Notes under the pieces: generated by a model | Database searches by the model: none | What the model saw: the letters and a program-made list of their open reading frames with translations, nothing else | Told to the model about the DNA's origin: nothing | Shown here: piece by piece, positions 44,776 through 57,596 of the stretch | How positions within the stretch are numbered: the first letter of the stretch is position 1 | How the letters are laid out: every line of letters starts with the position of its first letter | Assembly: GCA_905479065.1 (NCBI GenBank) | Contig: CAJQLB010000027.1 | Location: 124,001-188,000 of the forward strand | Source: an uncultured Flavobacteriaceae bacterium | Lineage (GTDB): Bacteria > Bacteroidota > Bacteroidia > Flavobacteriales > Flavobacteriaceae | DNA: 64,000 nucleotides | Reading direction: 5' to 3' | Made by a program: the position numbers and the translations under genes

Positions 44776-47373
44776 ATGCATAATATATTGCGGTACTTTA
44801 AGTTATTTCATCATCAAATAAGACGAACATTGAAAACATATAACACCTCGATCTTACTGTTTTTTTTATTACTGCTTGTAACAGCCTCATGTTCCCGTAA
44901 AAACGACACTTTCATTAGCAGAAATTATCACGCCGTAACAACGGAATATAATACTCTATATAATGGATTCAATGCTTTAGAGCAAGGAAGACAGACTCTA
45001 AATGATAGTTATTCTGACAACTATTGGGAAATTTTACCAGTTGAACGAATGCAAGTTTCAGATGAGTTGATTCTTCCTGGGCAATCAAAAAATGCAGATT
45101 TTGAGCGTGCAGAGGAAAAAGCAGTGAAGGCTGTACAAAAACACGGGATGAACATTGATGGTAAAGAAAAAAATCCTCAAATCGATGAGGCTTACTTGTT
45201 GTTGGGCAAGGCGCGTTACTTTGATCAACGTTTTGTGCCTGCAATGGAAGCTTTCAATTACATCCTTTACAAATACCCCGCAAGTGATAAAATTAATCAG
45301 GCAAGAATTTGGCGGGAAAAAACAAATTTAAGATTAGAAAATACAGAGTTAGCAGTAGCAAACTTGAAACGATTGTTATACCAAGAAAAGCTGAAAGGTC
45401 AAGATTTTGCTGATGCCACATCGATGTTGGCTGAAGGGTACATCGCTTTAGAGTTTTTGGACAGCGCGATTGTTCAATTAGAATTAGCATCGAATAATAC
45501 AAAAAGTAATGATGAGAGAGGTCGATATCGTTTCATCCAAGGACAATTATATAACGCTTTAGAAAAAAGGGACAGCGCAAATTATGCGTTTGATAGAGTT
45601 ATCGAGCTAAATCGTAAGACGCCAAGAATTTACTTGATAAGTGCTCATATTGAAAAGGCGAAAAATTTCAATTACACGGAGGGTAACAAGTTGGAGTTTT
45701 TAGAGGAACTCACAAAACTTGAAGAAAATAGAGAAAACAGACCTTTCTTAGATAAAATTTATCATCAAATAGCTGAATTTCATTTAACAAACACCTCTGA
45801 TTCTATCGCTGAAGTATACTATAATAAATCTTTAAGAACAGCCTCAAGGGACAGGTTTTTAGTTGCTTTAAATTATCAGAATTTAGGAGATATGAGTTTT
45901 GATAAAACAATCTATAAGCAAGCTGGTTCCTATTACGATAGCACCATGCTCAACTTAAAGAGAAATAGCAGACTGTTTAGAGATATTAGGAAAAAGCGTG
46001 AAAATTTAGACGATGTGATTCGTTTTGAAGACGTCGCTCAGAGAAATGATAGTATTTTATTTTTAATAAATCTTTCAGAAGATCAGCGCCTTGAATATTT
46101 TACTGTATACACAGACAAGTTAAAAAAGGAAGCTCAAGAAGCTAAAGAAAAGGCTGAAATAGCTGAAAAAAACAAGTCTGTTGGATTAAAATCAGTTGAG
46201 AGTAAAATTAATGGCATTGGTCAAAAAGCACCTAATATTAAATCCTTTTATTTTTACAATCCAGTGACGGTTGCTTATGGTAAGAATGAGTTTGTTAAAG
46301 TTTGGGGGAGTCGATCTTTGGAAGATAATTGGAGATGGTCGAATAAAGGAAGTGATGGTCTAGAGCTTTCTTCTTTAGGAGAAGAAGAGGGATTTGCAGA
46401 AATTGAAGACAATGAATTATTTGACCCTCAATTTTATATTTCCAAAATACCAATTGAAAATAAAGCTATAGACAGTTTAAAAAAGGAAAGAAACTTTGCC
46501 TACTATCAATTGGGTCTAATTTATAAGGATAAATTTAAGGAGTACCAATTAGCTAAAAATAAACTTAAGGATTTATTGGAAAGCGCCCCAGAAGAGCGAT
46601 TAATTTTACCTTCAAAATATAATTTACATAAAATATACATCCTTCTTAGTCAATTTGATGAGGCAGAAATAATCAAAAAAGATATTATCGACAACTATTC
46701 CAATTCAAGATATGCTGCTATTTTATTAAATCCAGATACTGATTTAGGTGAAGATGAAAATAGCCCAGAGTATTTGTATGAAAAATTATACGAACAATTC
46801 GAATCCCAAAATTACACTTCAGTAATTTCAGGATGTGATAAATTTATTAATATGTTTGAAGGGGAGGTTATTGTCCCAAAGTTTGAATTTTTAAAAGCAG
46901 TGTCAAGTGCACGGTTATTTGGATTCAAAAGCTACAAAAAAGCAATTAATTTCATAGCCTTAAATTATCCAAACAGTTCAGAAGGAGAAAAGGCCCAAAT
47001 CATGCTTAAAACGAGTATACCTGCTTTAGAAAAAAAAGAGTTTGTAGAAGAGGGTTCTTCTAAAAATTTTAAAGTTTTATATAATTTCACCAATACCAAA
47101 GAGGAGGAAATAAATAAGTTCGTAAAAACATTGAATACTGCAATAGCTGACGTAGCGTATTTTGATCTTTACACGTCTATTGATAAATATGATTTGGAAA
47201 CAACATTTGTTGTCGTTCACGGTTTAACTAGCTTCCAGGGAGCAGAAGGTTTTAAGGATCTTTTAGGCGATAAGAGTAATAAAATTAAGATGGACCATCT
47301 TCCTGTTTCCTCAGAAAACTACGAGGTTATTCAAATTCATAAAAATCTAGACGTATATTTAGAGTCTCAATAA
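44776..47373 (+). CDS. sprE: Gliding motility/T9SS lipoprotein SprE (PorW)
   Basis: 865 residues. An unusually long basic N-terminus leads to an SPII signal with Cys39 (VTASC). The mature part is rich in TPR-like helices (about 120-350 and 560-720). The opening RKNDTFISRNYHAVTTEYNTLYNGFNALEQG and the tandem-repeat layout match SprE/PorW, an outer-membrane-associated component of the type IX secretion system needed for gliding in Flavobacterium. A Lys/Glu-rich coiled segment lies near residues 445-470. The bactofilin gene follows after 9 bp, so it is cotranscribed with the genes ahead of the ATP synthase operon. Confidence 0.88.
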   Translation: MHNILRYFKLFHHQIRRTLKTYNTSILLFFLLLLVTASCSRKNDTFISRNYHAVTTEYNTLYNGFNALEQGRQTLNDSYSDNYWEILPVERMQVSDELILPGQSKNADFERAEEKAVKAVQKHGMNIDGKEKNPQIDEAYLLLGKARYFDQRFVPAMEAFNYILYKYPASDKINQARIWREKTNLRLENTELAVANLKRLLYQEKLKGQDFADATSMLAEGYIALEFLDSAIVQLELASNNTKSNDERGRYRFIQGQLYNALEKRDSANYAFDRVIELNRKTPRIYLISAHIEKAKNFNYTEGNKLEFLEELTKLEENRENRPFLDKIYHQIAEFHLTNTSDSIAEVYYNKSLRTASRDRFLVALNYQNLGDMSFDKTIYKQAGSYYDSTMLNLKRNSRLFRDIRKKRENLDDVIRFEDVAQRNDSILFLINLSEDQRLEYFTVYTDKLKKEAQEAKEKAEIAEKNKSVGLKSVESKINGIGQKAPNIKSFYFYNPVTVAYGKNEFVKVWGSRSLEDNWRWSNKGSDGLELSSLGEEEGFAEIEDNELFDPQFYISKIPIENKAIDSLKKERNFAYYQLGLIYKDKFKEYQLAKNKLKDLLESAPEERLILPSKYNLHKIYILLSQFDEAEIIKKDIIDNYSNSRYAAILLNPDTDLGEDENSPEYLYEKLYEQFESQNYTSVISGCDKFINMFEGEVIVPKFEFLKAVSSARLFGFKSYKKAINFIALNYPNSSEGEKAQIMLKTSIPALEKKEFVEEGSSKNFKVLYNFTNTKEEEINKFVKTLNTAIADVAYFDLYTSIDKYDLETTFVVVHGLTSFQGAEGFKDLLGDKSNKIKMDHLPVSSENYEVIQIHKNLDVYLESQ

Positions 47374-47382
47374 TTAACAAAG

Positions 47383-47805
47383 ATGTTTTCAGACAATAAA
47401 AAAAGTAAAATGGCAACAGAGAGTATATCAACGCAAAATATCATTGCTGCAGACACAAAAATTGTAGGAGATATTGTAAGTAAAGGACCTTTTAGAATCG
47501 ATGGTCAAGTAGAAGGAAATATTAAGACTAGGGACAAAATTGTTGTTGGCAAATCAGGCTTCGTTAACGGCACTATTGACGGTACAAATGCTGATTTTGA
47601 AGGGAGCTTCTCCGGAAAGCTCAAATTGTCTGGGACGCTGTCATTAAAATCTTCAGCTTATGTTCAGGGAGAAGTAGAGGTCGGCAAATTAGCAGTAGAG
47701 CCTGGAGCAACTTTTAATGCAACATGCAGTATGAAAGGAGCTGTAAAAGAACTAAATAAAGGTGGGCAGCAACAATCAAATTCAGAAAAAGAAAGAACGG
47801 CTTAA
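47383..47805 (+). CDS. Bactofilin (polymer-forming cytoskeletal protein)
   Basis: 140 residues. The bactofilin core (about 20-120) shows the repeated beta-helix strands: TKIVGDIVSKGPFRIDGQVEGNI, then DKIVVGKSGFVNGTIDG, then LSGTLSLKSSAYVQGEVEVGKLAVEPGATF. Bactofilins polymerise without nucleotide and act as scaffolds at the inner membrane. An internal Met10 (MATESIST) could be the real start. It follows sprE by 9 bp, and its 3' end overlaps the AtpZ gene by 44 bp. Confidence 0.9.
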   Translation: MFSDNKKSKMATESISTQNIIAADTKIVGDIVSKGPFRIDGQVEGNIKTRDKIVVGKSGFVNGTIDGTNADFEGSFSGKLKLSGTLSLKSSAYVQGEVEVGKLAVEPGATFNATCSMKGAVKELNKGGQQQSNSEKERTA

Positions 47806-48016
47806 TAATTATGCCCGTTTTTCGGGTGTAGGGTTTCAAATGCTTGCTACGATAGGAGTTGGTGTCTGGGGAGGAATAAAACTAGATAATATCTACCCTA
47901 ATAACTATCAAGTGTTTACTGTAATTTGCTCATTAATCTCAATTGGAGTTGCTCTATATCTTGTTATTAAACAAGTCACTAAATTTTCAAATCAAAAAAA
48001 CAACACAAATGACTAA
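47762..48016 (+). CDS. atpZ: AtpZ/AtpI family ATP synthase accessory membrane protein
   Basis: 84 residues with a GTG start lying 44 bp inside the bactofilin gene in another frame. No ATG exists before the conserved region, which begins YARFSGVGFQML. Two transmembrane helices (about 26-42 and 51-72) are separated by a short loop with KLDNIYP. This matches the AtpZ (F0F1-ATPase subunit/AtpI-like) family, proposed to aid assembly or ion supply. It lies directly ahead of the F0 genes, which supports the assignment. Confidence 0.75.
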   Translation: MGSNNQIQKKKERLNNYARFSGVGFQMLATIGVGVWGGIKLDNIYPNNYQVFTVICSLISIGVALYLVIKQVTKFSNQKNNTND

Positions 48017-48392
48017 AGAAACAATAAGTTTCGTTACAAGATTATTATTATTGACAGCTATTCTTTTAGCCGTTCATGTATATATATTAAGTCAATTTTT
48101 TACTGGACACCTATATTTCCCTATTTGGACTATTTATGTCTTTAATGCTGTTTTGGTTTTTATTGTTTATAGTTTTTTAAGATTTAAGGCTAGTCAAGGA
48201 AGTAACAAAATGTATCAGTTGTTTTTGGGATTGACTAGTATAAAGATGGCCTTAGCGATCGTGTTTTTATTACCTCTTTTTTTTGGTAAATCCGAGCACG
48301 CTCAACTCGAGGTTATTAATTTTTTTATTCCATATTTTTTGTTTTTGGCCTTTGAAATTTTCAACCTTAATAAATTTCTTCAAAAAAGCTAA
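48009..48392 (+). CDS. Small membrane protein of the ATP synthase cluster (DUF6168-like)
   Basis: 127 residues from the ATG at 48009, which overlaps the atpZ stop by 8 bp; an in-frame upstream extension to 47943 would run through the second helix region of atpZ and is rejected. Four transmembrane helices (about 9-27, 35-58, 70-90, 97-117) are predicted. The position corresponds to the small AtpI-like protein between atpZ and atpB in Flavobacteriaceae, which I recall as DUF6168. The function is unknown, perhaps F0 assembly. Confidence 0.68.
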   Translation: MTKETISFVTRLLLLTAILLAVHVYILSQFFTGHLYFPIWTIYVFNAVLVFIVYSFLRFKASQGSNKMYQLFLGLTSIKMALAIVFLLPLFFGKSEHAQLEVINFFIPYFLFLAFEIFNLNKFLQKS

Positions 48393-48408
48393 ACATTGTA
48401 AGTTTTAA

Positions 48409-48439
48409 TTTGCAATTTGATTAAATGTACGTACATTTG
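48409..48439 (+). promoter_or_regulatory. Promoter of atpB with overlapping 16-bp palindrome
   Basis: TTTG (48409-48412), a 19-bp spacer and TACATTTG (48432-48439) match the Bacteroidota promoter consensus very well. Initiation would be near 48445, giving a leader of about 30 nt. The perfect palindrome AAATGTACGTACATTT (48423-48438) covers the -7 box and could be an operator. Confidence 0.75.
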
Positions 48440-48476
48440 CACCGAATTTTAGAAGCTATTTTAATTTAAAAAACTG

Positions 48477-49577
48477 ATGCAAATCAACACTTTTAAAACA
48501 CTGTTACTAGGCTTACTTCTTTCACTTTCGTTTGTAGTAAAAGCAAATGAATCAATTGAAGAAAAATCAGACGAAAAAGATTTCAATGTTACTGACATGA
48601 TTATGCATCACATTAAAGATGCTCATGACTTCCATATTATGGACTGGGATGGACATGCTATTTCTTTTCCTTTACCAGTTATTTTGTGGACAAACGATGG
48701 ATTAGTGACTTTTATGTCATCTGAGTTTCACCATAATGATGATGGAACAATTGTTGTAGAAAAAGGAGGTCAGAAATTTATAAAATTCCATGAAGAAATT
48801 TATTATGCTAATGATGAAGCAGATCATGGCTCTTATGTAAGTTTTGATCCTGAACATCATCCCACAAATGTAGCTCCTCTAGACTTTTCTATCACTAAAT
48901 TGGTGTTTTCAATGTTTATGTCAATGATATTATTGTTGTTAATATTTGGTTTTTCTGCGAGAGCGTATAATAGATCGGAAAACGGAGTTCCAACAGGAAT
49001 TGCAAAATTCACAGAACCTTTGATTGTGTTTATTCGTGATGAGGTAGCCATACCCAATATAGGAGAAAAGCATTACAAAAGATTCTTACCATTTTTATTA
49101 ACGTTATTTTTCTTTATTTGGATAAATAATATTATGGGATTAATTCCTTTTTTCCCTTTCAGCGGAAACTTGAGTGGTAATATTGCATTTACAGGAGTAT
49201 TGGCATTAATAACATTTATCATCACAACGTTTGTTGCAAATAAAGATTACTGGAAACACATTTTTTGGATGCCAGGAGTTCCGGTACCAATGAAATTGTT
49301 TTTGGCGCCAATAGAATTTATGGGCATATTTATTAAGCCTATTTCTCTTATGATACGTTTGTTTGCAAACATTTCAGCAGGACACATTATAGTTCTGAGT
49401 TTAATATCATTGATATTTATAGCAAAGAGTATTTGGATTGCGCCAGCATCTGTGATATTCTCGGTATTTATTAGTGTTATTGAAGTATTAGTTGTGGCTA
49501 TACAAGCCTATATTTTCACTATGTTAACTGCTCTATATATTGGTAGCGCCATGGAGGAACACGAACACGAACATTAA
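48477..49577 (+). CDS. atpB: F0F1 ATP synthase subunit a
   Basis: 366 residues, longer than enterobacterial subunit a (about 270), because a signal peptide (1-22) and an acidic/His-rich extracytoplasmic domain (about 25-130) precede the membrane part; this is usual in Bacteroidota. The proton channel helix contains the essential Arg294 in LMIRLFANISAGH. The C-terminus is His/Glu-rich (EEHEHEH). The gene has its own strong promoter and starts the atpBEFHAG series. It forms the stationary half-channels next to the c-ring. Confidence 0.95.
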   Translation: MQINTFKTLLLGLLLSLSFVVKANESIEEKSDEKDFNVTDMIMHHIKDAHDFHIMDWDGHAISFPLPVILWTNDGLVTFMSSEFHHNDDGTIVVEKGGQKFIKFHEEIYYANDEADHGSYVSFDPEHHPTNVAPLDFSITKLVFSMFMSMILLLLIFGFSARAYNRSENGVPTGIAKFTEPLIVFIRDEVAIPNIGEKHYKRFLPFLLTLFFFIWINNIMGLIPFFPFSGNLSGNIAFTGVLALITFIITTFVANKDYWKHIFWMPGVPVPMKLFLAPIEFMGIFIKPISLMIRLFANISAGHIIVLSLISLIFIAKSIWIAPASVIFSVFISVIEVLVVAIQAYIFTMLTALYIGSAMEEHEHEH

Positions 49578-49597
49578 TTAATTTTTAATATTTATAA

Positions 49598-49837
<240 letters not shown>

Positions 49838-49848
49838 AGAAGAAAATG

Positions 49849-49876
49849 GTGCAGCGGTTGGCTGCACTATTTTTTT
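49849..49876 (+). terminator. Intra-operon terminator between atpE and atpF
   Basis: A perfect 7-bp GC-rich stem (GTGCAGC 49849-49855, GCTGCAC 49861-49867), a 5-nt loop, then TATTTTTTT. It has the form of a rho-independent terminator. Since atpF continues the operon 30 bp later with no visible promoter, partial read-through is expected. Confidence 0.75.
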
Positions 49877-49906
49877 AGTATTAAAGATTTTAAAATAAAT
49901 TAAGAA

Positions 49907-50401
49907 ATGGATTTAGTTACTCCAGATGTTGGACTATTGTTTTGGACAGTTATCTCGTTTTTTGTGCTTTTATTTCTATTAAGAAAATTTGCATGGAAAC
50001 CAATTGTAGGTACAGTTAACGATAGAGAAACGTCTATTCGTGAAGCATTAGAATCTGCTGAAAAGGCTCGTCTTGAAATGCAAAACCTCACTGCTGACAA
50101 TGAGCGTATTTTAAAAGAAGCTCGTGTAGAACGCGAAACCATGTTAAAAGAGGCCCGAGAGATAAAAGCAAAGATGATTTCTGATGCAAAAGATGAAGCT
50201 CAAACTCAAGCAAATAAAATGATTGAGCAGGCTCAGATTGCCATTGCCAGTGAGAAAAAATCAGCGATGGCGGAGCTTAAAAATCACGTAGCAGGTTTAT
50301 CAGTTGATATTGCAGAAAAAATGGTAAGAGAAGAATTATCTAACAAGGACAAGCAACTTAAGTTAGTTGAGAATATGTTAGGTGAAGCAAAGTTAAACTA
50401 G
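49907..50401 (+). CDS. atpF: F0F1 ATP synthase subunit b
   Basis: 164 residues. An N-terminal transmembrane helix (about 9-27, GLLFWTVISFFVLLFLL) followed by RKFAWKPI and a long charged helix forming the peripheral stalk (about 40-140). This is the standard subunit b layout, and a single b gene implies a homodimer. It lies between the atpE terminator and atpH (4-bp gap), without a promoter of its own that I can see. Confidence 0.95.
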   Translation: MDLVTPDVGLLFWTVISFFVLLFLLRKFAWKPIVGTVNDRETSIREALESAEKARLEMQNLTADNERILKEARVERETMLKEAREIKAKMISDAKDEAQTQANKMIEQAQIAIASEKKSAMAELKNHVAGLSVDIAEKMVREELSNKDKQLKLVENMLGEAKLN

Positions 50402-50405
50402 AATC

Positions 50406-50942
50406 ATGGCACAAACAAGAGCAGCAATACGATATGCAAAAGCAGTTATGAGTCTTGCAAATGAACAAAACTCTGCTAGCAAACTTAATGACGATATGAA
50501 GTCTATTGTTAATGCTGTTGCAGAAAGTAAAGATTTAAGCGATATGCTTCAAAGCCCTGTGATACATTCAAAGGTAAAAAAGGCAACGCTTTTAGAAGTG
50601 TTTCCTAACATGAATAAGCTCAGCGTTAAACTTATTGATCTACTTGTCGAAAACAAACGTATTGACATAATAGACGTAGTTGCTCAAAAAATAAACATGT
50701 TATTTGATGAATCTCAGGGGACCCAAATAGCAAAAGTAACTACTGCAATTCCTTTAACTAAAGAATTAGAAGCGAAAGTGCTTACAAAAGTAAAAGAGCT
50801 TACAGGGAATGATGCAGAAGTTCAAAACACTGTTGACGAATCTATATTGGGAGGATTTATTCTAAGAGTTGGAGACATACAATACAACGCTAGTATTGCT
50901 AATAAACTAGACAAATTAAAAAGAGAATTTACATTAAACTAA
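50406..50942 (+). CDS. atpH: F0F1 ATP synthase subunit delta
   Basis: 178 residues. The N-terminal six-helix domain starts with RAAIRYAKAVMSLA, and the C-terminal segment VDESILGGFILRVGDIQYNASIANKLDKLKREF carries the conserved OSCP/delta signature. It joins the peripheral stalk to the top of F1. It is 4 bp after atpF and 27 bp before atpA in the same operon. Confidence 0.95.
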   Translation: MAQTRAAIRYAKAVMSLANEQNSASKLNDDMKSIVNAVAESKDLSDMLQSPVIHSKVKKATLLEVFPNMNKLSVKLIDLLVENKRIDIIDVVAQKINMLFDESQGTQIAKVTTAIPLTKELEAKVLTKVKELTGNDAEVQNTVDESILGGFILRVGDIQYNASIANKLDKLKREFTLN

Positions 50943-50969
50943 GATATTTATATCTAAATAAATAATAAG

Positions 50970-52550
50970 ATGGCAGAAGTAAAACCAGCTGAGATATCAG
51001 CAATCTTAAAACAACAATTATCAGGATTTGAAGCATCGGCTTCACTAGACGAAGTTGGATCAGTATTAACCATTGGGGATGGTATTGTACGTGCTTACGG
51101 ATTGTCAAATGCACAATATGGAGAATTAGTAGAATTTGATGGGGGGCTTGAAGGAATTGTTCTTAACTTAGAAGAAGATAACGTTGGTATTGTATTATTA
51201 GGGCATTCAAAAGAAGTAAAAGAAGGTTCAACTGTAAAACGAACTGGACGTATCGCATCTGTTAATGTAGGTGAAGGTATTGTTGGTCGTGTGGTTGATA
51301 CATTAGGAAATCCAATTGACGGTAAAGGACCAATTGCTGGAGAAACATATGAAATGCCATTAGAGCGTAAAGCACCAGGTGTTATCTATAGAGAGCCAGT
51401 AACTGAGCCATTGCAAACAGGAATCAAATCTATTGACGCTATGATTCCAGTTGGACGAGGACAACGTGAATTGGTGATTGGGGATAGGCAAACCGGTAAA
51501 ACGACAGTTTGTATTGATACCATCTTGAATCAAAAAGAATTTTATGACGCAGGTGAACCTGTATATTGTATTTATGTTGCGGTAGGACAAAAGGCATCTA
51601 CAGTAGCAAATATTGCTAAGGTATTAGAGGAAAGAGGTGCTCTTGCTTATACAACGATTGTCGCTGCGAATGCATCAGACCCCGCTCCAATGCAAGTATA
51701 TGCTCCAATGACAGGCGCCGCAATCGGTGAGTATTTCAGAGATACTGGTCGTCCAGCGCTAATAATTTATGATGACCTATCGAAACAAGCAGTTGCTTAT
51801 CGTGAGGTATCATTGTTATTACGTCGTCCACCAGGACGTGAAGCATATCCTGGAGATGTTTTTTACTTACACTCTCGTTTGTTAGAACGTTCGGCAAAAG
51901 TTATTAATGATGATGCTATTGCCAAGGAAATGAATGATCTTCCTGATTCATTAAAACCAATAGTAAAAGGAGGAGGATCTCTAACGGCATTGCCAATTAT
52001 AGAAACTCAAGCAGGGGATGTATCAGCATATATTCCAACAAACGTAATTTCAATTACTGATGGTCAAATTTTCTTAGATGGAGATTTATTCAATTCTGGT
52101 GTTCGTCCAGCAATTAATGTTGGTATATCAGTGTCTCGAGTTGGTGGTAATGCTCAGATTAAGTCAATGAAAAAGGTTTCGGGAACACTAAAGTTAGATC
52201 AAGCACAATTCCGGGAATTAGAGGCTTTTGCAAAATTTGGTTCTGATCTTGATGCGTCAACGCTAAATGTTATTGAAAAAGGAAAGCGTAATGTTGAGAT
52301 ATTAAAACAAGCACAAAATGATCCCTTCACAGTTGAGGATCAAATTGCCATCATCTATGCAGGTTCCAAGAACTTGTTGAAAGATGTTCCAGTTAATAAG
52401 GTAAAAGAATTTGAGCGTGATTATATCGAGTTTTTAAAAGCTAAACACACGGATGCCTTAACTACTTTGAAGTCTGGTAAGCTAACGGATGATGTTACAG
52501 ATATATTAACAAATGTTGCTCAAGATTTGTCAGGGAAATACAAGGCTTAA
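50970..52550 (+). CDS. atpA: F0F1 ATP synthase subunit alpha
   Basis: 526 residues. It has the regulatory nucleotide site on F1, with Walker A GDRQTGKT (about 171-178). The N-terminal beta-barrel contains [16 protein letters not shown], and the conserved [14 protein letters not shown] signature lies near residue 385. It pairs with the beta subunit, whose gene (atpD, with atpC) is not in this cluster; that separation is common in Bacteroidota. The codon usage looks that of a highly expressed gene. Confidence 0.98.
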
Positions 52551-52594
52551 ATTAAGGTTATATTGAATTAGAATTTGTTTAATGTTTTAAAACT

Positions 52595-53455
52595 ATGGCA
52601 AACTTAAAAGAAATACGTAACAGAATATCGTCAGTGTCTTCAACAATGCAGATAACTAGCGCTATGAAAATGGTGTCTGCTGCAAAGTTAAAAAAGGCCC
52701 AAGACGCTATTACAGCGATGCGTCCTTACTCAGATAAGTTGACAGAGTTATTGCAAAGTTTGAGTGCAACGTTAGATGCAGATTCTGGCAGTAAGTTTGC
52801 TCTTGAAAGAGAAGTTAAGCGCGTACTATTAGTTCCTATAACCTCAAATAGAGGTCTCGCTGGGGCATTTAATTCCAACATAATTAAAGAAACATTAAAA
52901 CTGAGCTCTGAAGACTATTTAAGCACTGAAATTAGTTATTTGACTATTGGTAAAAAAGCAAATGATGCCTTCAAAAAAACAAAGCATCTGATAGCGGATC
53001 GAAGTGAAATATTTGATGATTTAACTTATGATAATGCATCCGAAATTGCTCAAATTTTGATGGATACTTTTGTTGATGGAAAAGTTGATAAAGTTGTTCT
53101 TGTTTACAATAAATTTAAAAATGCTGCAACACAAGAAATAATGACGGAGCAATTTTTACCAATTGTCCCAACAAAAGACAATCTTAATTCAAATCTAGAT
53201 TATATATTCGAGCCATCTAAAGCTGAAATTGTTGAACAGCTAATACCTAAATCGTTGAAAACACAATTATTCAAAGCGATTAGAGATTCTTTTGCTAGTG
53301 AACATGGCGCAAGAATGACCGCGATGCATAAAGCAACCGATAACGCTACTGAATTGAGAGATCAATTGAAATTAACCTATAATAAAGCGCGTCAAGCATC
53401 TATTACAAACGAAATATTAGAAATTGTTGGCGGGGCAGAAGCCTTGAATAATTAA
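52595..53455 (+). CDS. atpG: F0F1 ATP synthase subunit gamma
   Basis: 286 residues. The N-terminal coiled-coil half (LKEIRNRISSVSSTMQITSAMKMVSAAKLKKAQ) and the C-terminal half (HGARMTAMHKATDNATELRDQLKLTYNKARQASITNEILEIVGGAEAL) form the rotating central shaft. The central Rossmann-like domain includes SNRGLAGAFN. It is the last gene of this operon and is followed by a clear terminator, so beta and epsilon subunits must be supplied from another locus. Confidence 0.97.
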   Translation: MANLKEIRNRISSVSSTMQITSAMKMVSAAKLKKAQDAITAMRPYSDKLTELLQSLSATLDADSGSKFALEREVKRVLLVPITSNRGLAGAFNSNIIKETLKLSSEDYLSTEISYLTIGKKANDAFKKTKHLIADRSEIFDDLTYDNASEIAQILMDTFVDGKVDKVVLVYNKFKNAATQEIMTEQFLPIVPTKDNLNSNLDYIFEPSKAEIVEQLIPKSLKTQLFKAIRDSFASEHGARMTAMHKATDNATELRDQLKLTYNKARQASITNEILEIVGGAEALNN

Positions 53456-53476
53456 TTCTAATTTATAAAATGTAAT

Positions 53477-53508
53477 AAAGCTAAACGTTCTTGTTTAGCT
53501 TTTGTCGT
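53477..53508 (+). terminator. Terminator of the atp operon
   Basis: A perfect 10-bp stem (AAAGCTAAAC 53477-53486, GTTTAGCTTT 53493-53502) with a 6-nt loop and a short T-rich tail, 21 bp after the atpG stop. Confidence 0.75.
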
Positions 53509-53528
53509 TTATTAGATTGTCGCGAACA

Positions 53529-53536
53529 TAATTTTG
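53529..53536 (+). promoter_or_regulatory. -7 promoter box for the T9SS-secreted propeller protein
   Basis: TAATTTTG matches TAnnTTTG, 82 nt before the ATG. A TTTG at 53501-53504 would give a spacer of 24 bp, longer than usual. Confidence 0.35.
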
Positions 53537-53618
53537 TTTAACGAAAAGCGATTATAATTAAACAGTAATTGAAAAAATAGTCTTAATTTAGAACATTATT
53601 TAAAAATAAACACTAAAA

Positions 53619-56600
53619 ATGAAAACACTAAAACACTTATTGCTTGGTGCTTTGTTATGTTTTGTGGTTGTTACAGCCATTATAACTAATTGGCACAATC
53701 AAAAAACAGATGTTTTAATGTCACCCAACGACATTACAAAAATTCATGAAGATAATTTAAAAAACAGTCCTTTCAAAGAATCGTTGTTATTAGATAAAGA
53801 GCAGCGTAAAGATGCAGGTTTGCCTCCAAACAAGTATTATGAGGAAGAATATGAATTAACTATGAATCCGGTGTTGGGCCGACCTACATTCGAAAACCTT
53901 CCAGAGATTAGAAATCAAATAAAGTCGTTTGAAGGATTGAGAACTCCTGGAGACGGTATTGATGAAGATTGGGTTTCAAGAGGTCCTGATAATCTTGGAG
54001 GAAGAACTAGAGCTGTGATGTTTGATCCAAATGATAATTCAAATGAAACTGTTTTTGCAGGCGGTGTTAGTGGTGGATTATGGAAGAACACAGGTATATC
54101 TGATGCAAATACTGTATGGTCAAGAGTCAATATTCCGAGCAATCTAAATGTTTCTGTTTTGACTTACGATCCGAATGATTTTAACATATTTTATGCAGGA
54201 ACAGGTGAATCATATACAAGTGGCGATGTAAACGGTGACGGTGTATGGATGTCTGAAGATGCTGGGGAAACATGGAAAAACGTCTTTGGTGGAATTTCTG
54301 GACCTACAACGTTTCAATCTGCCTCAGATATTACCATTAATGCTCCAGGAGATATTGCAGGAGATTATTTATCAACACCGACTACTGCCTTTGGATCTAC
54401 AATCACTTCAGTTATAACTGCTGATTTAGTATTAGCTAATGACACATCCATAGCACCAGCGGAGGGTTGTGAAGAGTTTGGTGCTGAAGTCTCAGGTAAA
54501 ATAGCTTTGATTAGGAGAGGGTCTTGTAACTTTACCGTTAAGGTTAAAAATGCTCAAGATGAAGGAGCTGTTGCAGCTATCATTATGAATAATATTCCTG
54601 GCTCCCCTATTAGTATGGGAGGTGAAGATGCTTCAATTACAATACCGGCAGTGATGATTTCCAAAGCAGACGGAGATTTAATCGAAGCAGCATTAGCTGA
54701 AGGAGATGTTAATGTTTCTATGAATCCTTTATCAGGAGATTTTACTGGTAATCTTGTTCCAGGAATTCAGCATATTAATGACATAAAAATTAAAGATAAT
54801 AATGGAATCTCAGAGGTCTATGTGGCCGCAGGCGAATCATTTTATGGTGATGCTAACTCGACAACATATTTGGGAGGTCCAGAATTAGGCCTCTATAAAT
54901 CAATTGATCAAGGAGATTCATGGACTGAATTAAACATGCCATTGACGGCATCAGGAAAGAAACACGAGCCAAATGACATTGAAGTGGGAGCTGATGGAAA
55001 AATTTGGGTTTCTACAATTTCGAGCTCTATTTATGGAGAGGGTGGAGGAAAGGTATTTTCATCTGAAGATGGAGAAACGTTTACAAATGCATACACTTTA
55101 GAAGGCGCTAACAGGACTCAAATAGCAGTTTCTTCACAAGATGCAGATAAAGTTTATATACTCGCACAAATCTCAGAAGGTGTAGCGATGGAAGTTACAA
55201 CAGATGGATTTGCTACAGGAACTTCGGATATGGCACTCCCGAACGATGCTGATACGGGAATTAGTGCAACAGATTTTACAAGAGGTCAAGCTTTCTATGA
55301 TTTAATGTTAGAAGTTGATCCTACAGATGATGACGTTATCTATAGTGGAGGAATTGATTTATTTAAGTCAGAAAATTCTGGGACTTCTTGGAACCAATTT
55401 ACGCATTGGTATGCCGGTTTTGGTTATCAATATGCACATGCGGATCAGCACGGAATGACATTTTCTAATTCAGATCCTAATACAGTTTTATTTGGGAATG
55501 ATGGAGGCGTGTTTTATTCTAACAACGGCGGGACAAATACCTTAGAGAGAAATAAAGGCTTTATTACGTCTCAATTTTATACTGTCGGCGTTGCCCCAAC
55601 TACCGCGTTTGATGGTGCTGAATACTTTGTGGGAGGCCTCCAAGACAATGGGACACATTTATTTTCAAATGCAGACCCTGGTATCAATAGCTCTGTTGAA
55701 ACCTATGGAGGAGATGGAGCTTACAGCTTTTTTGATCAAGACGGAACAGACCAATACTACATAAGAAACTATGTTTATAATAATGGTATTAATTTGTATA
55801 ATTTATCGAATAATCAAAGTATCACGATAAATAGTGAGAGTAGTAGTATAGGATCGTTTATTAATCCGCAAGGATTAGATTCAAACTTGGATATTTTATA
55901 CTCTAATTATTCCTCGGGTTCAGATGCTGCAATTAGAAGATATGCGGGAATAAAATCTCAAGGAACTATAGAAAAAACAAGTTTAACAAGTACAGAACTT
56001 GTTAGTAGACCAACGGCATTTACCGTATCACCTTACACAACTTCTTCTTCAACCTTGTTAGTTGGAACTGTTTTGGGTGATATTATTAAATTAGAAAATG
56101 CTGAAGCAACTCCGACATGGACTAATATCGAAACATTAAATATTATTGTTGGAAGTATATCAGATATTGAGTATGGCGCATCAGAAAATGATATTTTTGT
56201 GACTGTTCATAATTATGGCGTACAGAGTATATGGTACACTAATGATGGAGGGGCCAATTGGTATGGAAAAGAAGGAGATTTACCCGACATGCCAGTTAAA
56301 GCAATATTACAGAGTCCATTAAATCCGGAAGAGGTCATTGTTGGAACAGAATTAGGCGTGTGGTATACCACTAACTTTTTGTCTACAAACCCAAACTGGC
56401 TGCCTGCTTTTAATGGAATGTCAAATGCAAAAGTCATGGATTTAGATTTGAGAGATGATAATGCAATATACGCAGCTACTTACGGTAGAGGTATTTTTTC
56501 TGGACAATTTATTATAGATCCAAATGGTGATGATGATGGAGATGGTGTTCCTAACGGGACAGATAATTGTCCGAATACAGCAAATCCAGATCAAGCAGAT

Positions 56601-57596
56601 ACTGATGGCAATGGTATCGGAGATGCCTGTCAAGATACGGATGGAGATAGTGTCATCGATACAGAAGATAATTGTGTTGAAACCCCTAATGTTGATCAAT
56701 TAGACACAGATGGAAATGGTGTGGGTGATGCTTGCCAAGATTCGGATGGAGATTCCGTTTTTGACAATGAAGATAATTGTATAGATACACCAAATCCCGA
56801 TCAGTTAGACACCAATGGAAATGGCGTAGGAGATATTTGTGATACAAGCTATGAAAACACAGACAACATCATTCTGGAAGTTATTTCGGAGTCATGTGAA
56901 AATCAAGATAATGGTATCATTAATATAACGGTTACTGAAACATATGTTTCATACACGGTTACTGTTACAGGAGACGGAACTGATGAAAATGAAACAATGA
57001 CATCAGACTCAATAAGTTTTGATAACCTATCGGTTGGAGCTTACACTGTTTGTGTAAATGTTGACGGAAGAGATTTTGAGCAATGTTTTGAAATAAATAT
57101 TGACGCGGCAGTTCCTTTAGACGGTATATTTGGCTTGGTAGATGATAGTAATGGTGACAGCGACGTAGAAACCACAATGGTTAACATCAATTCGGGAACA
57201 CCTCCGTTCACAGTAATGTTTAATAACGATATCATTTTAATTACAAATGAAAAAATCTTTGAGGTTGAAACAATGGGCTCTGGTTTATTAGAGATTAAAT
57301 CCGGAAAAGCTTGTGAAGGAATAATGAGTAGAGCAATGGAAGGCAGTAATATTTTAAATTTTGTTGCAAGCCCTAATCCGGTAATCGATGTTTTAAAAAT
57401 CACATTGCCTGAAATATCACAAAATGCAGTCTATACAGAAATCTTTGATATTAATGGGAAATTGATTTATAAGAGTGAAATTCAAGTATATAATTCTAAA
57501 AGTATTAATATCCCATTCAGCAGTTTTAGTAGTGGTCTTTACTTTGTAAAGCTTTCGTTGAATGAGCCTAAAACTATTAAAATCATAAAAAAATAA
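53619..57596 (+). CDS. T9SS-secreted propeller protein with PA domain, TSP3 repeats and type A sorting domain
   Basis: 1325 residues. A signal peptide (about 1-24) is followed by sortilin/BNR-like propeller repeats in two parts (about 105-240 and 390-955), with GGLWKNTG, VWMSEDAGETWK and FKSENSGTSWN as repeat signatures. Between the parts sits a protease-associated (PA) domain (about 270-362, with GKIALIRRGSCNFTVKV). Three thrombospondin type 3 calcium-binding repeats (966-1075, DxDGDxxxDxxDNC) follow, and the C-terminus (1247-1325, ASPNPVIDVLKI to LYFVKLSLNE) is a type A T9SS sorting domain. No protease domain is visible. It is probably displayed at the cell surface, perhaps binding polymers. 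Confidence 0.88.
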   Translation: MKTLKHLLLGALLCFVVVTAIITNWHNQKTDVLMSPNDITKIHEDNLKNSPFKESLLLDKEQRKDAGLPPNKYYEEEYELTMNPVLGRPTFENLPEIRNQIKSFEGLRTPGDGIDEDWVSRGPDNLGGRTRAVMFDPNDNSNETVFAGGVSGGLWKNTGISDANTVWSRVNIPSNLNVSVLTYDPNDFNIFYAGTGESYTSGDVNGDGVWMSEDAGETWKNVFGGISGPTTFQSASDITINAPGDIAGDYLSTPTTAFGSTITSVITADLVLANDTSIAPAEGCEEFGAEVSGKIALIRRGSCNFTVKVKNAQDEGAVAAIIMNNIPGSPISMGGEDASITIPAVMISKADGDLIEAALAEGDVNVSMNPLSGDFTGNLVPGIQHINDIKIKDNNGISEVYVAAGESFYGDANSTTYLGGPELGLYKSIDQGDSWTELNMPLTASGKKHEPNDIEVGADGKIWVSTISSSIYGEGGGKVFSSEDGETFTNAYTLEGANRTQIAVSSQDADKVYILAQISEGVAMEVTTDGFATGTSDMALPNDADTGISATDFTRGQAFYDLMLEVDPTDDDVIYSGGIDLFKSENSGTSWNQFTHWYAGFGYQYAHADQHGMTFSNSDPNTVLFGNDGGVFYSNNGGTNTLERNKGFITSQFYTVGVAPTTAFDGAEYFVGGLQDNGTHLFSNADPGINSSVETYGGDGAYSFFDQDGTDQYYIRNYVYNNGINLYNLSNNQSITINSESSSIGSFINPQGLDSNLDILYSNYSSGSDAAIRRYAGIKSQGTIEKTSLTSTELVSRPTAFTVSPYTTSSSTLLVGTVLGDIIKLENAEATPTWTNIETLNIIVGSISDIEYGASENDIFVTVHNYGVQSIWYTNDGGANWYGKEGDLPDMPVKAILQSPLNPEEVIVGTELGVWYTTNFLSTNPNWLPAFNGMSNAKVMDLDLRDDNAIYAATYGRGIFSGQFIIDPNGDDDGDGVPNGTDNCPNTANPDQADTDGNGIGDACQDTDGDSVIDTEDNCVETPNVDQLDTDGNGVGDACQDSDGDSVFDNEDNCIDTPNPDQLDTNGNGVGDICDTSYENTDNIILEVISESCENQDNGIINITVTETYVSYTVTVTGDGTDENETMTSDSISFDNLSVGAYTVCVNVDGRDFEQCFEINIDAAVPLDGIFGLVDDSNGDSDVETTMVNINSGTPPFTVMFNNDIILITNEKIFEVETMGSGLLEIKSGKACEGIMSRAMEGSNILNFVASPNPVIDVLKITLPEISQNAVYTEIFDINGKLIYKSEIQVYNSKSINIPFSSFSSGLYFVKLSLNEPKTIKIIKK

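Follow-up and report, generated by a model that had tools for sequence, protein, structure and literature searches.

The c ring of the ATP synthase contains about ten c subunits. How bacteria reach this number from an operon with a single gene per subunit is a long-standing stoichiometry problem, which E. coli solves mainly at translation. Shine-Dalgarno sequences are rarely used in Bacteroidia, so a solution at the level of the transcript would be of general interest. The hairpin described here follows the gene for subunit c, atpE. The E. coli rplL-rpoBC attenuator is a partial terminator that follows the gene for a multi-copy subunit and precedes genes for subunits needed in fewer copies. 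Its placement is similar to that of the atpE hairpin, the genes are unrelated, and we know of no conserved pentaloop in it. The Rhodobacter puf operon, on which Chen et al. reportedly published in 1988, is said to have an intercistronic stem-loop that keeps the upstream segment of the polycistronic mRNA in excess. That stem-loop would share its intercistronic position with the atpE hairpin; the genes differ, and to our knowledge its loop is not fixed across a class.

In the F-type ATPase operon of Clostridium (Ruminiclostridium) cellulolyticum (Ccel_0265-0273), the gene for subunit c is flanked on either side by a processing site and ends in a 3' stem-loop, and its transcript is 3-5 times as abundant as those of its neighbors; 28 of the 33 selective RNA processing and stabilization stem-loops in this organism lack a U-run (PMC4423207). 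In another operon of this species, stem-loops are both cleavage signals and stabilizers (PMC10311766). Our locus resembles the C. cellulolyticum operon in that a stem-loop follows the gene for subunit c directly and the stoichiometry problem is the same. It differs in belonging to another phylum and in that the U-run is mostly absent there, with no conserved loop mentioned in the accessible text, whereas most hairpins here have a T-rich flank. For stabilization of a 3' end, which an initial annotation of our locus had also raised, the C. cellulolyticum c-subunit gene is an experimental precedent. Subunit ratios in an archaeon are adjusted by terminators inside operons; the ATP-synthase operon has none, and one that was inserted harmed growth (PMC10450193). 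Both observations on that operon count against the explanation that we favor below. A constraint on loop sequence like the one described here does not appear in the accessible text of these three papers (PMC4423207, PMC10311766, PMC10450193).

Two further descriptions concern structured RNAs in general. The L17 downstream element (RF01708; Weinberg et al. 2010, PMC2864571) is, like the atpE hairpin, a structured RNA 3' of one gene, and feedback was suggested for it. Unlike the atpE hairpin, which has no Rfam match, it occurs in Lactobacillales and Listeria, at a ribosomal gene, and has G-U pairs and GNRA loops. The category "Terminator stem candidate" (PMC11109978) consists, like the element here, of a single strong covarying hairpin followed by U residues, and many of the atpE hairpins would fall under its definition. 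Unlike the element here, it needs five or more U, and a fixed loop is not mentioned in the accessible text; the strings Bacteroid- and Flavobacter- are absent from the main text of that paper (PMC11109978).

The window that we analyzed, a stretch of 64,000 nucleotides from an uncultured Flavobacteriaceae bacterium, contains an atp operon with the following features.

48409 to 48439, plus strand: putative operon promoter, TTTG-N19-TACATTTG, upstream of atpB (pattern match in an apt position)
48477 to 49577, plus strand: atpB (subunit a), an open reading frame named from gene order and known features
49601 to 49837, plus strand: atpE (subunit c), an open reading frame
49840 to 49855, plus strand: 5' arm of the hairpin, with an A-rich base and a GC-rich top (fold and scan; covariation in relatives)
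49856 to 49860, plus strand: GGTTG pentaloop (conserved loop; fold)
49861 to 49876, plus strand: 3' arm of the hairpin, with the T-tract at its end (fold; sequence)
49907 to 50401, plus strand: atpF (subunit b), the first gene 3' of the hairpin, named from gene order
50406 to 53455, plus strand: atpH, atpA and atpG, open reading frames named from gene order and known features
53477 to 53502, plus strand: hairpin 3' of atpG (simple terminator scan), with a loop that differs from that of the atpE hairpin

The names atpB, atpH, atpA and atpG are presumptive.

The initial annotation had described a 7-bp stem with a T-tract right after atpE. Both are present: GTGCAGC at 49849-49855 pairs with GCTGCAC at 49861-49867 around the GGTTG loop (49856-49860), and the T-tract TATTTTTTT follows at 49868-49876. 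Pairing continues between the T-tract and the A-rich 5' flank, which extends the full stem to 16 bp rather than 7 (49840-49855 with 49861-49876). Only 2 nt separate the atpE stop codon (49837) from the base of this stem, and atpF starts at 49907. The 41-nt hairpin segment folds at -21.9 kcal/mol (z = -6.99), and none of 200 shuffles was equally stable. The hairpin therefore has the stable, GC-containing stem of at least five pairs that is expected of an intrinsic terminator. The T-tract after the GC part of the stem, likewise expected, is present in the window (TATTTTTTT) and is variable in relatives. A simple terminator scan listed the atpE hairpin on the minus strand only. Its omission on the plus strand is probably due to the T-tract being taken as part of the stem there, and the listing is thus no strong evidence either way. 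The same scan listed the hairpin after atpG on both strands, with weak T-tails, and this hairpin is probably a two-way terminator at the end of the operon.

No promoter was seen before atpF, in agreement with the initial annotation: the gap holds no sigma-70-like match, and the sole plus-strand match to TTTG-N17-22-TANNTTTG within the operon is the one at 48409-48439, upstream of atpB. There were six matches to this pattern in the window against a chance mean of 6.2, which is no excess, and it is the position alone that speaks for a putative promoter at 48409-48439. A search for promoters of the known Bacteroidetes type 3' of the hairpin in other loci found TAnnTTTG in 1 of 97 spacers and the looser TAnnTTT in 16 of 97, so that an obvious promoter is usually absent there.

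The most important feature of the hairpin, its conserved loop, was missed by the initial annotation. We compared 140 loci (set 1: 30 relatives, 80 named records and 30 further relatives), a set that is enriched for close relatives and includes the window itself (L001), at least one apparent duplicate (L002/L063) and four or more loci whose records carry the label of another phylum (among them L034, L085, L094 and L109). An AtpE homologue was found in all 60 relatives. By folding, 95 of the 140 loci have a GRTTG pentaloop (GGTTG or GATTG) after atpE. Conservation in relatives, which the initial annotation had named as a point to check, is therefore borne out, and it reaches far beyond close relatives. 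A stem scan of set 1 gave a loop of the form RNTWG in 98 of the 140 loci, 88 of them GGTTG; one of the 98, L066 (AATTG), is probably a chance match. Variant loops (ATTAG, GTTAG, GATAG, GGTAG and GTTTG) occurred in a few loci. The consensus of 159 pentaloops from strong spacer hairpins was R-N-U-W-G, mostly GGUUG, and the apical pairs favor A-R-C/G-Y-U. The loop starts 14-51 nt past the atpE stop codon (quartiles 23-30 nt), and the next ATG follows the hairpin at a rather uniform spacing (quartiles 30-40 nt, n = 138).

We analyzed covariation in an alignment built from the 98 RNTWG loci. From these, 69 representatives were chosen by similarity, six were omitted by hand to leave 63 aligned sequences, and L058 and L059 were dropped because aligning them needed gaps, which gave an ungapped alignment of 61 distinct hairpin sequences. 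There were changes on both sides at all 14 of the 14 pairs, and 306 cells with two-sided changes compared to 85 in shuffles. The fraction of paired cells was 94.8%, against 58.3% in shuffled and 35-46% in slid alignments. None of 500 shuffles reached the observed value for paired cells, for changed cells or for the covariation score; the number of pairs with change is a weaker measure when taken alone, as 14 pairs were reached in 11 of the 500 shuffles. Identity fell from 96% for the loop columns to 76% for the three apical pairs and 37% for the outer stem; 26% is expected from composition. The stem has thus been rewritten with its pairing kept while the loop stayed constant, which indicates selection on the RNA hairpin and, separately, on the loop sequence.

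The loop is widespread in Bacteroidia. We assembled a class-wide set of 80 further loci (79 outside the window's family). Sixty of them represent, by a single genome each, the families beyond the window's order in which atpE was matched, and 20 were chosen by hand. GRTTG was present in 45 of these 80 loci. Among the 60 families of Bacteroidia represented by one genome each, 32 have GRTTG and 37 a pentaloop of the form RNNNG; 28 lack GRTTG. Outside the class, none of 20 families of the phylum with an atpE match (one locus each) had a hairpin with a GRTTG pentaloop, and one of them (L355) had a related hexaloop, GGTTGA. We also searched with a covariance model, which scored a subset of preselected candidates (118 per genome for the relatives and 24 per genome for the phylum), so that copies elsewhere may be missed. 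At E values up to 1, it matched 46 of the 60 relatives, adjoining atpE by coordinates in 45, with a single match only in 38 of the 46. In the sparser search of the phylum, 47 of 296 genomes had a match with an E value of at most 0.1. The relative and phylum model searches added 57 loci, and in 55 of them atpE has the hairpin. Five model matches outside the class (L289-L293) were discarded; atpE is in none of these loci.

There was no GRTTG in the loci of Prevotella, Xylanibacter, Bacteroides, Phocaeicola and Paludibacter, in some reduced genomes with short spacers, or in the records labelled as other phyla. The same stoichiometry should be needed in Bacteroides, Phocaeicola, Prevotella and Paludibacter and in the reduced genomes, many of these loci having short spacers; their lack of the element, like that of GRTTG in 28 of the 60 families, argues against a role in dosage.

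Some individual loci depart from the common arrangement. L135 and L139, from the window's own family, have no pentaloop, and the hairpin after atpE has the loop AGCT or TGGT. In L244 (family f98), atpE is not followed by atpF: when ATG-started open reading frames of 110 aa or more are considered, the next one is a lipoprotein-like gene; a strong hairpin is kept after atpE, with the loop GCTTG and a strong T-run. L131 and L274 were considered as exceptions to the atpE-atpF order and rejected, since by eye they have atpF with a TTG or GTG start.

Among the sites examined, the element is nearly exclusive to atpE. In set 1 plus the window (both strands, 2.4 Mb, the window being present additionally as L001), GGTTG loops were found in 80 of the 89 strong hairpins in atpE-atpF spacers and in none of the 438 strong hairpins elsewhere; for RNTWG loops the numbers were 87 of 89 and 3 of 438. 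The hairpins after atpG served as a control. We found atpG in 97 of the 140 loci, and in 91 of these there was a hairpin of at least 8 pairs shortly 3' of the gene. None of these 91 hairpins has GRTTG and there are 69 different loops among them; 59 of the same 91 loci have GRTTG after atpE. In the window's genome, RCGGTTGGY occurs at 36 sites and is not enriched relative to a reversed control pattern (39 sites), and of 30 sites examined only the one at atpE is a hairpin. The search of the 60 relatives with the covariance model also gave eleven matches away from atpE. Seven of these overlap open reading frames, one (L173) is a hairpin with another loop, and three are hairpins with a GGTTG or GATTG loop. 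The three, each from a single relative, are 3' of an alcohol-dehydrogenase-like gene (L171), 3' of ftsH (L172; both genes named by eye) and in an intergenic gap (L176), so that the loop is not strictly tied to atpE.

To compare T-tracts, we counted T in the 9 nt from the outermost G-C pair. The hairpins after atpG had a mean of 5.7, the two atpE sets means of 5.3 and 5.1. Strong tails, with at least 7 T among the 9 positions, were found in 29 of 140 motif hairpins compared to 42 of 91 after atpG, and poor tails (3 or fewer) were about equally frequent (17 of 140 and 15 of 91). The T-poor atpE cases are therefore weaker evidence than they appear. At least 4 T of 9 were present in 123 of the 140 motif hairpins. 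In most species the T-tails are compatible with leaky termination, and hairpins with a poor T-tract retain the loop as well. The initial annotation had called the hairpin an intrinsic terminator, and the T-rich flank and the place between atpE and atpF speak for this. As the whole story it is not supported: the T-tract varies and is weaker than that after atpG, so termination alone is not enough to explain the hairpin, and the loop is nearly invariant. The loop of an intrinsic terminator should be unconstrained in sequence, whereas GRTTG is present in 140 of the 220 loci of both sets combined, against GGTTG in none of the 438 hairpins elsewhere and GRTTG in none of the 91 after atpG. Such a constraint does not exclude terminator activity. 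As in selective RNA processing and stabilization, the stem-loop is found at the 3' end of an operon-internal gene, and the operon encodes a complex of uneven stoichiometry.

No match above the gathering threshold was found in Rfam 15, either for window positions 46500-54500 (E up to 10) or for 20 loci (E up to 0.5). The lone sub-threshold match over the window's hairpin, to STnc40, scored 21.9 bits (E 3.6) where the cut-off is 45, and the 20 loci gave three sub-threshold matches, none near the cut-off. A 2017 study reportedly presented 224 candidate structured RNAs. We found no description of the element in the main texts of open-license papers. A list of 104 RNA motifs from 2010 includes Bacteroidetes motifs, none of which is tied to atp genes in the accessible text (PMC2864571), and "ATP synthase" is absent from the main texts of transcriptome papers on F. 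psychrophilum (PMC9723704) and B. thetaiotaomicron (PMC7366714). Intercistronic stem-loops that set subunit ratios are known; a stem-loop of this kind whose loop is fixed across a class has, as far as we searched, no earlier description. Hfq is unlikely as a reader of the loop: PF17209, the sole RNA-binding family examined, was found in 0 of 60 relatives, in a search whose control detected Hfq in 5 of 14 known genomes. With five loop bases kept and the stem rewritten across many families, the pattern points to an RNA reader yet to be discovered.

On balance, we think it somewhat more likely than not that the hairpin is a conserved cis-acting 3' RNA element of the atpBE message that is read through its loop and gives extra atpE mRNA. 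The hairpin would make or protect a 3' end after atpE: it would block 3' exonucleases in any case and, given a good T-tract, would also act as a leaky intrinsic terminator. The result would be more atpE mRNA than atpFHAG mRNA, matching the need of the c ring, an effect that we infer. The GRUUG pentaloop may be read by a sequence-specific factor that would set the fraction of 3' ends formed or kept; with less assurance, we suggest a protein as the most likely candidate. More tentatively, in a version that we consider less likely than not, this class-wide motif, for which we propose the name "atpE downstream element", would be bound through its RNUWG pentaloop by a dedicated Bacteroidia protein. 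The protein would set, and perhaps regulate, the share of atp transcripts that end after atpE, which would couple c-ring supply to the energy state or to ATP-synthase assembly.

Two other explanations compete with this one. The hairpin could be a pure processing or stability element, with an endonuclease cutting near it and the atpBE fragment shielded without any termination. We consider this rather unlikely, although several points speak for it: there is the precedent at the C. cellulolyticum c-subunit gene in a species with 28 of 33 such stem-loops lacking a U-run (PMC4423207), ATP synthases are among the predicted operons of the same kind in Clostridium in the accessible text of another paper (PMC8219983), T-poor members exist in Bacteroidia, and the distance from hairpin to ATG is narrow. 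However, T-rich tails are the rule in Bacteroidia, unlike in Clostridium, and no Bacteroidia cleavage site was found in the literature examined. A plain leaky intrinsic terminator, with a loop kept for fast or stable folding and no reader, seems to us rather improbable, even though the T-rich flank is usual, the place 3' of atpE is right and no promoter was seen before atpF. A loop that favors folding should recur, yet GGTTG is absent from the 438 other hairpins and from the 91 after atpG. The loop is also kept in the 17 T-poor motif hairpins, an argument that is blunted by the similar fraction of T-poor hairpins after atpG.

The remaining explanations concern what the loop might contact. Control by assembly or feedback, in which an ATP-synthase subunit or assembly factor would bind the loop and adjust readthrough into atpFHAG, is improbable. 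The hairpin is tied to one gene in nearly all examined loci, and conservation of the loop is what might be expected at a protein-binding site, but the ATP synthase is also present where the element is missing. We give very little credence to a pseudoknot in which the loop pairs with the CAR-CC codons that encode a conserved RQP motif of atpE. GGUUG could pair with CAACC and, if wobble is allowed, with CAGCC; CAACC is present in the RQP codons in 57 of 88 GGTTG loci, and the 50-nt bins richest in CAACC are at these codons (43 and 17 of 85 loci). However, these codons recur because the protein sequence demands them, which makes their recurrence uninformative, and GATTG, GATAG, GTTAG and ATTAG break the pairing without compensation while U3 and G5 are kept. 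We rejected the pairing on these two grounds. Moreover, a loop of five bases is hardly able to pair along its whole length. Elsewhere in the operon, CCAACC, CAACCG and CCAACCG showed no strong positional cluster (at most 7 of 85 loci per 50-nt bin, in the RQP bin). Least credible of all is a DNA-level element such as a protein-binding palindrome or an uptake sequence. It would account for an inverted repeat with a fixed center, but the outer stem letters are near random among species while pairing is kept, a covariation that nearly refutes it, and only 1 of the 30 loop-motif sites examined in the window's genome is a hairpin.

The operon and its surroundings also contain other sequences of note. 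Among 61 loci with full context, 21 strong and often AT-rich palindromic hairpins, whose sequences and loops differ, were seen about 2.6-3.0 kb after atpE. They are in the atpA-atpG spacer, about 2.75 kb past the atpE stop codon (for example in L032, L037, L042, L043 and L124), and look like mobile or repeat palindromes. Past the atp operon of the window, at 53619-57596, there is an open reading frame of 1325 aa with repeated DxDGDG-type stretches, and its end, judged by eye, resembles a type IX secretion sorting domain.
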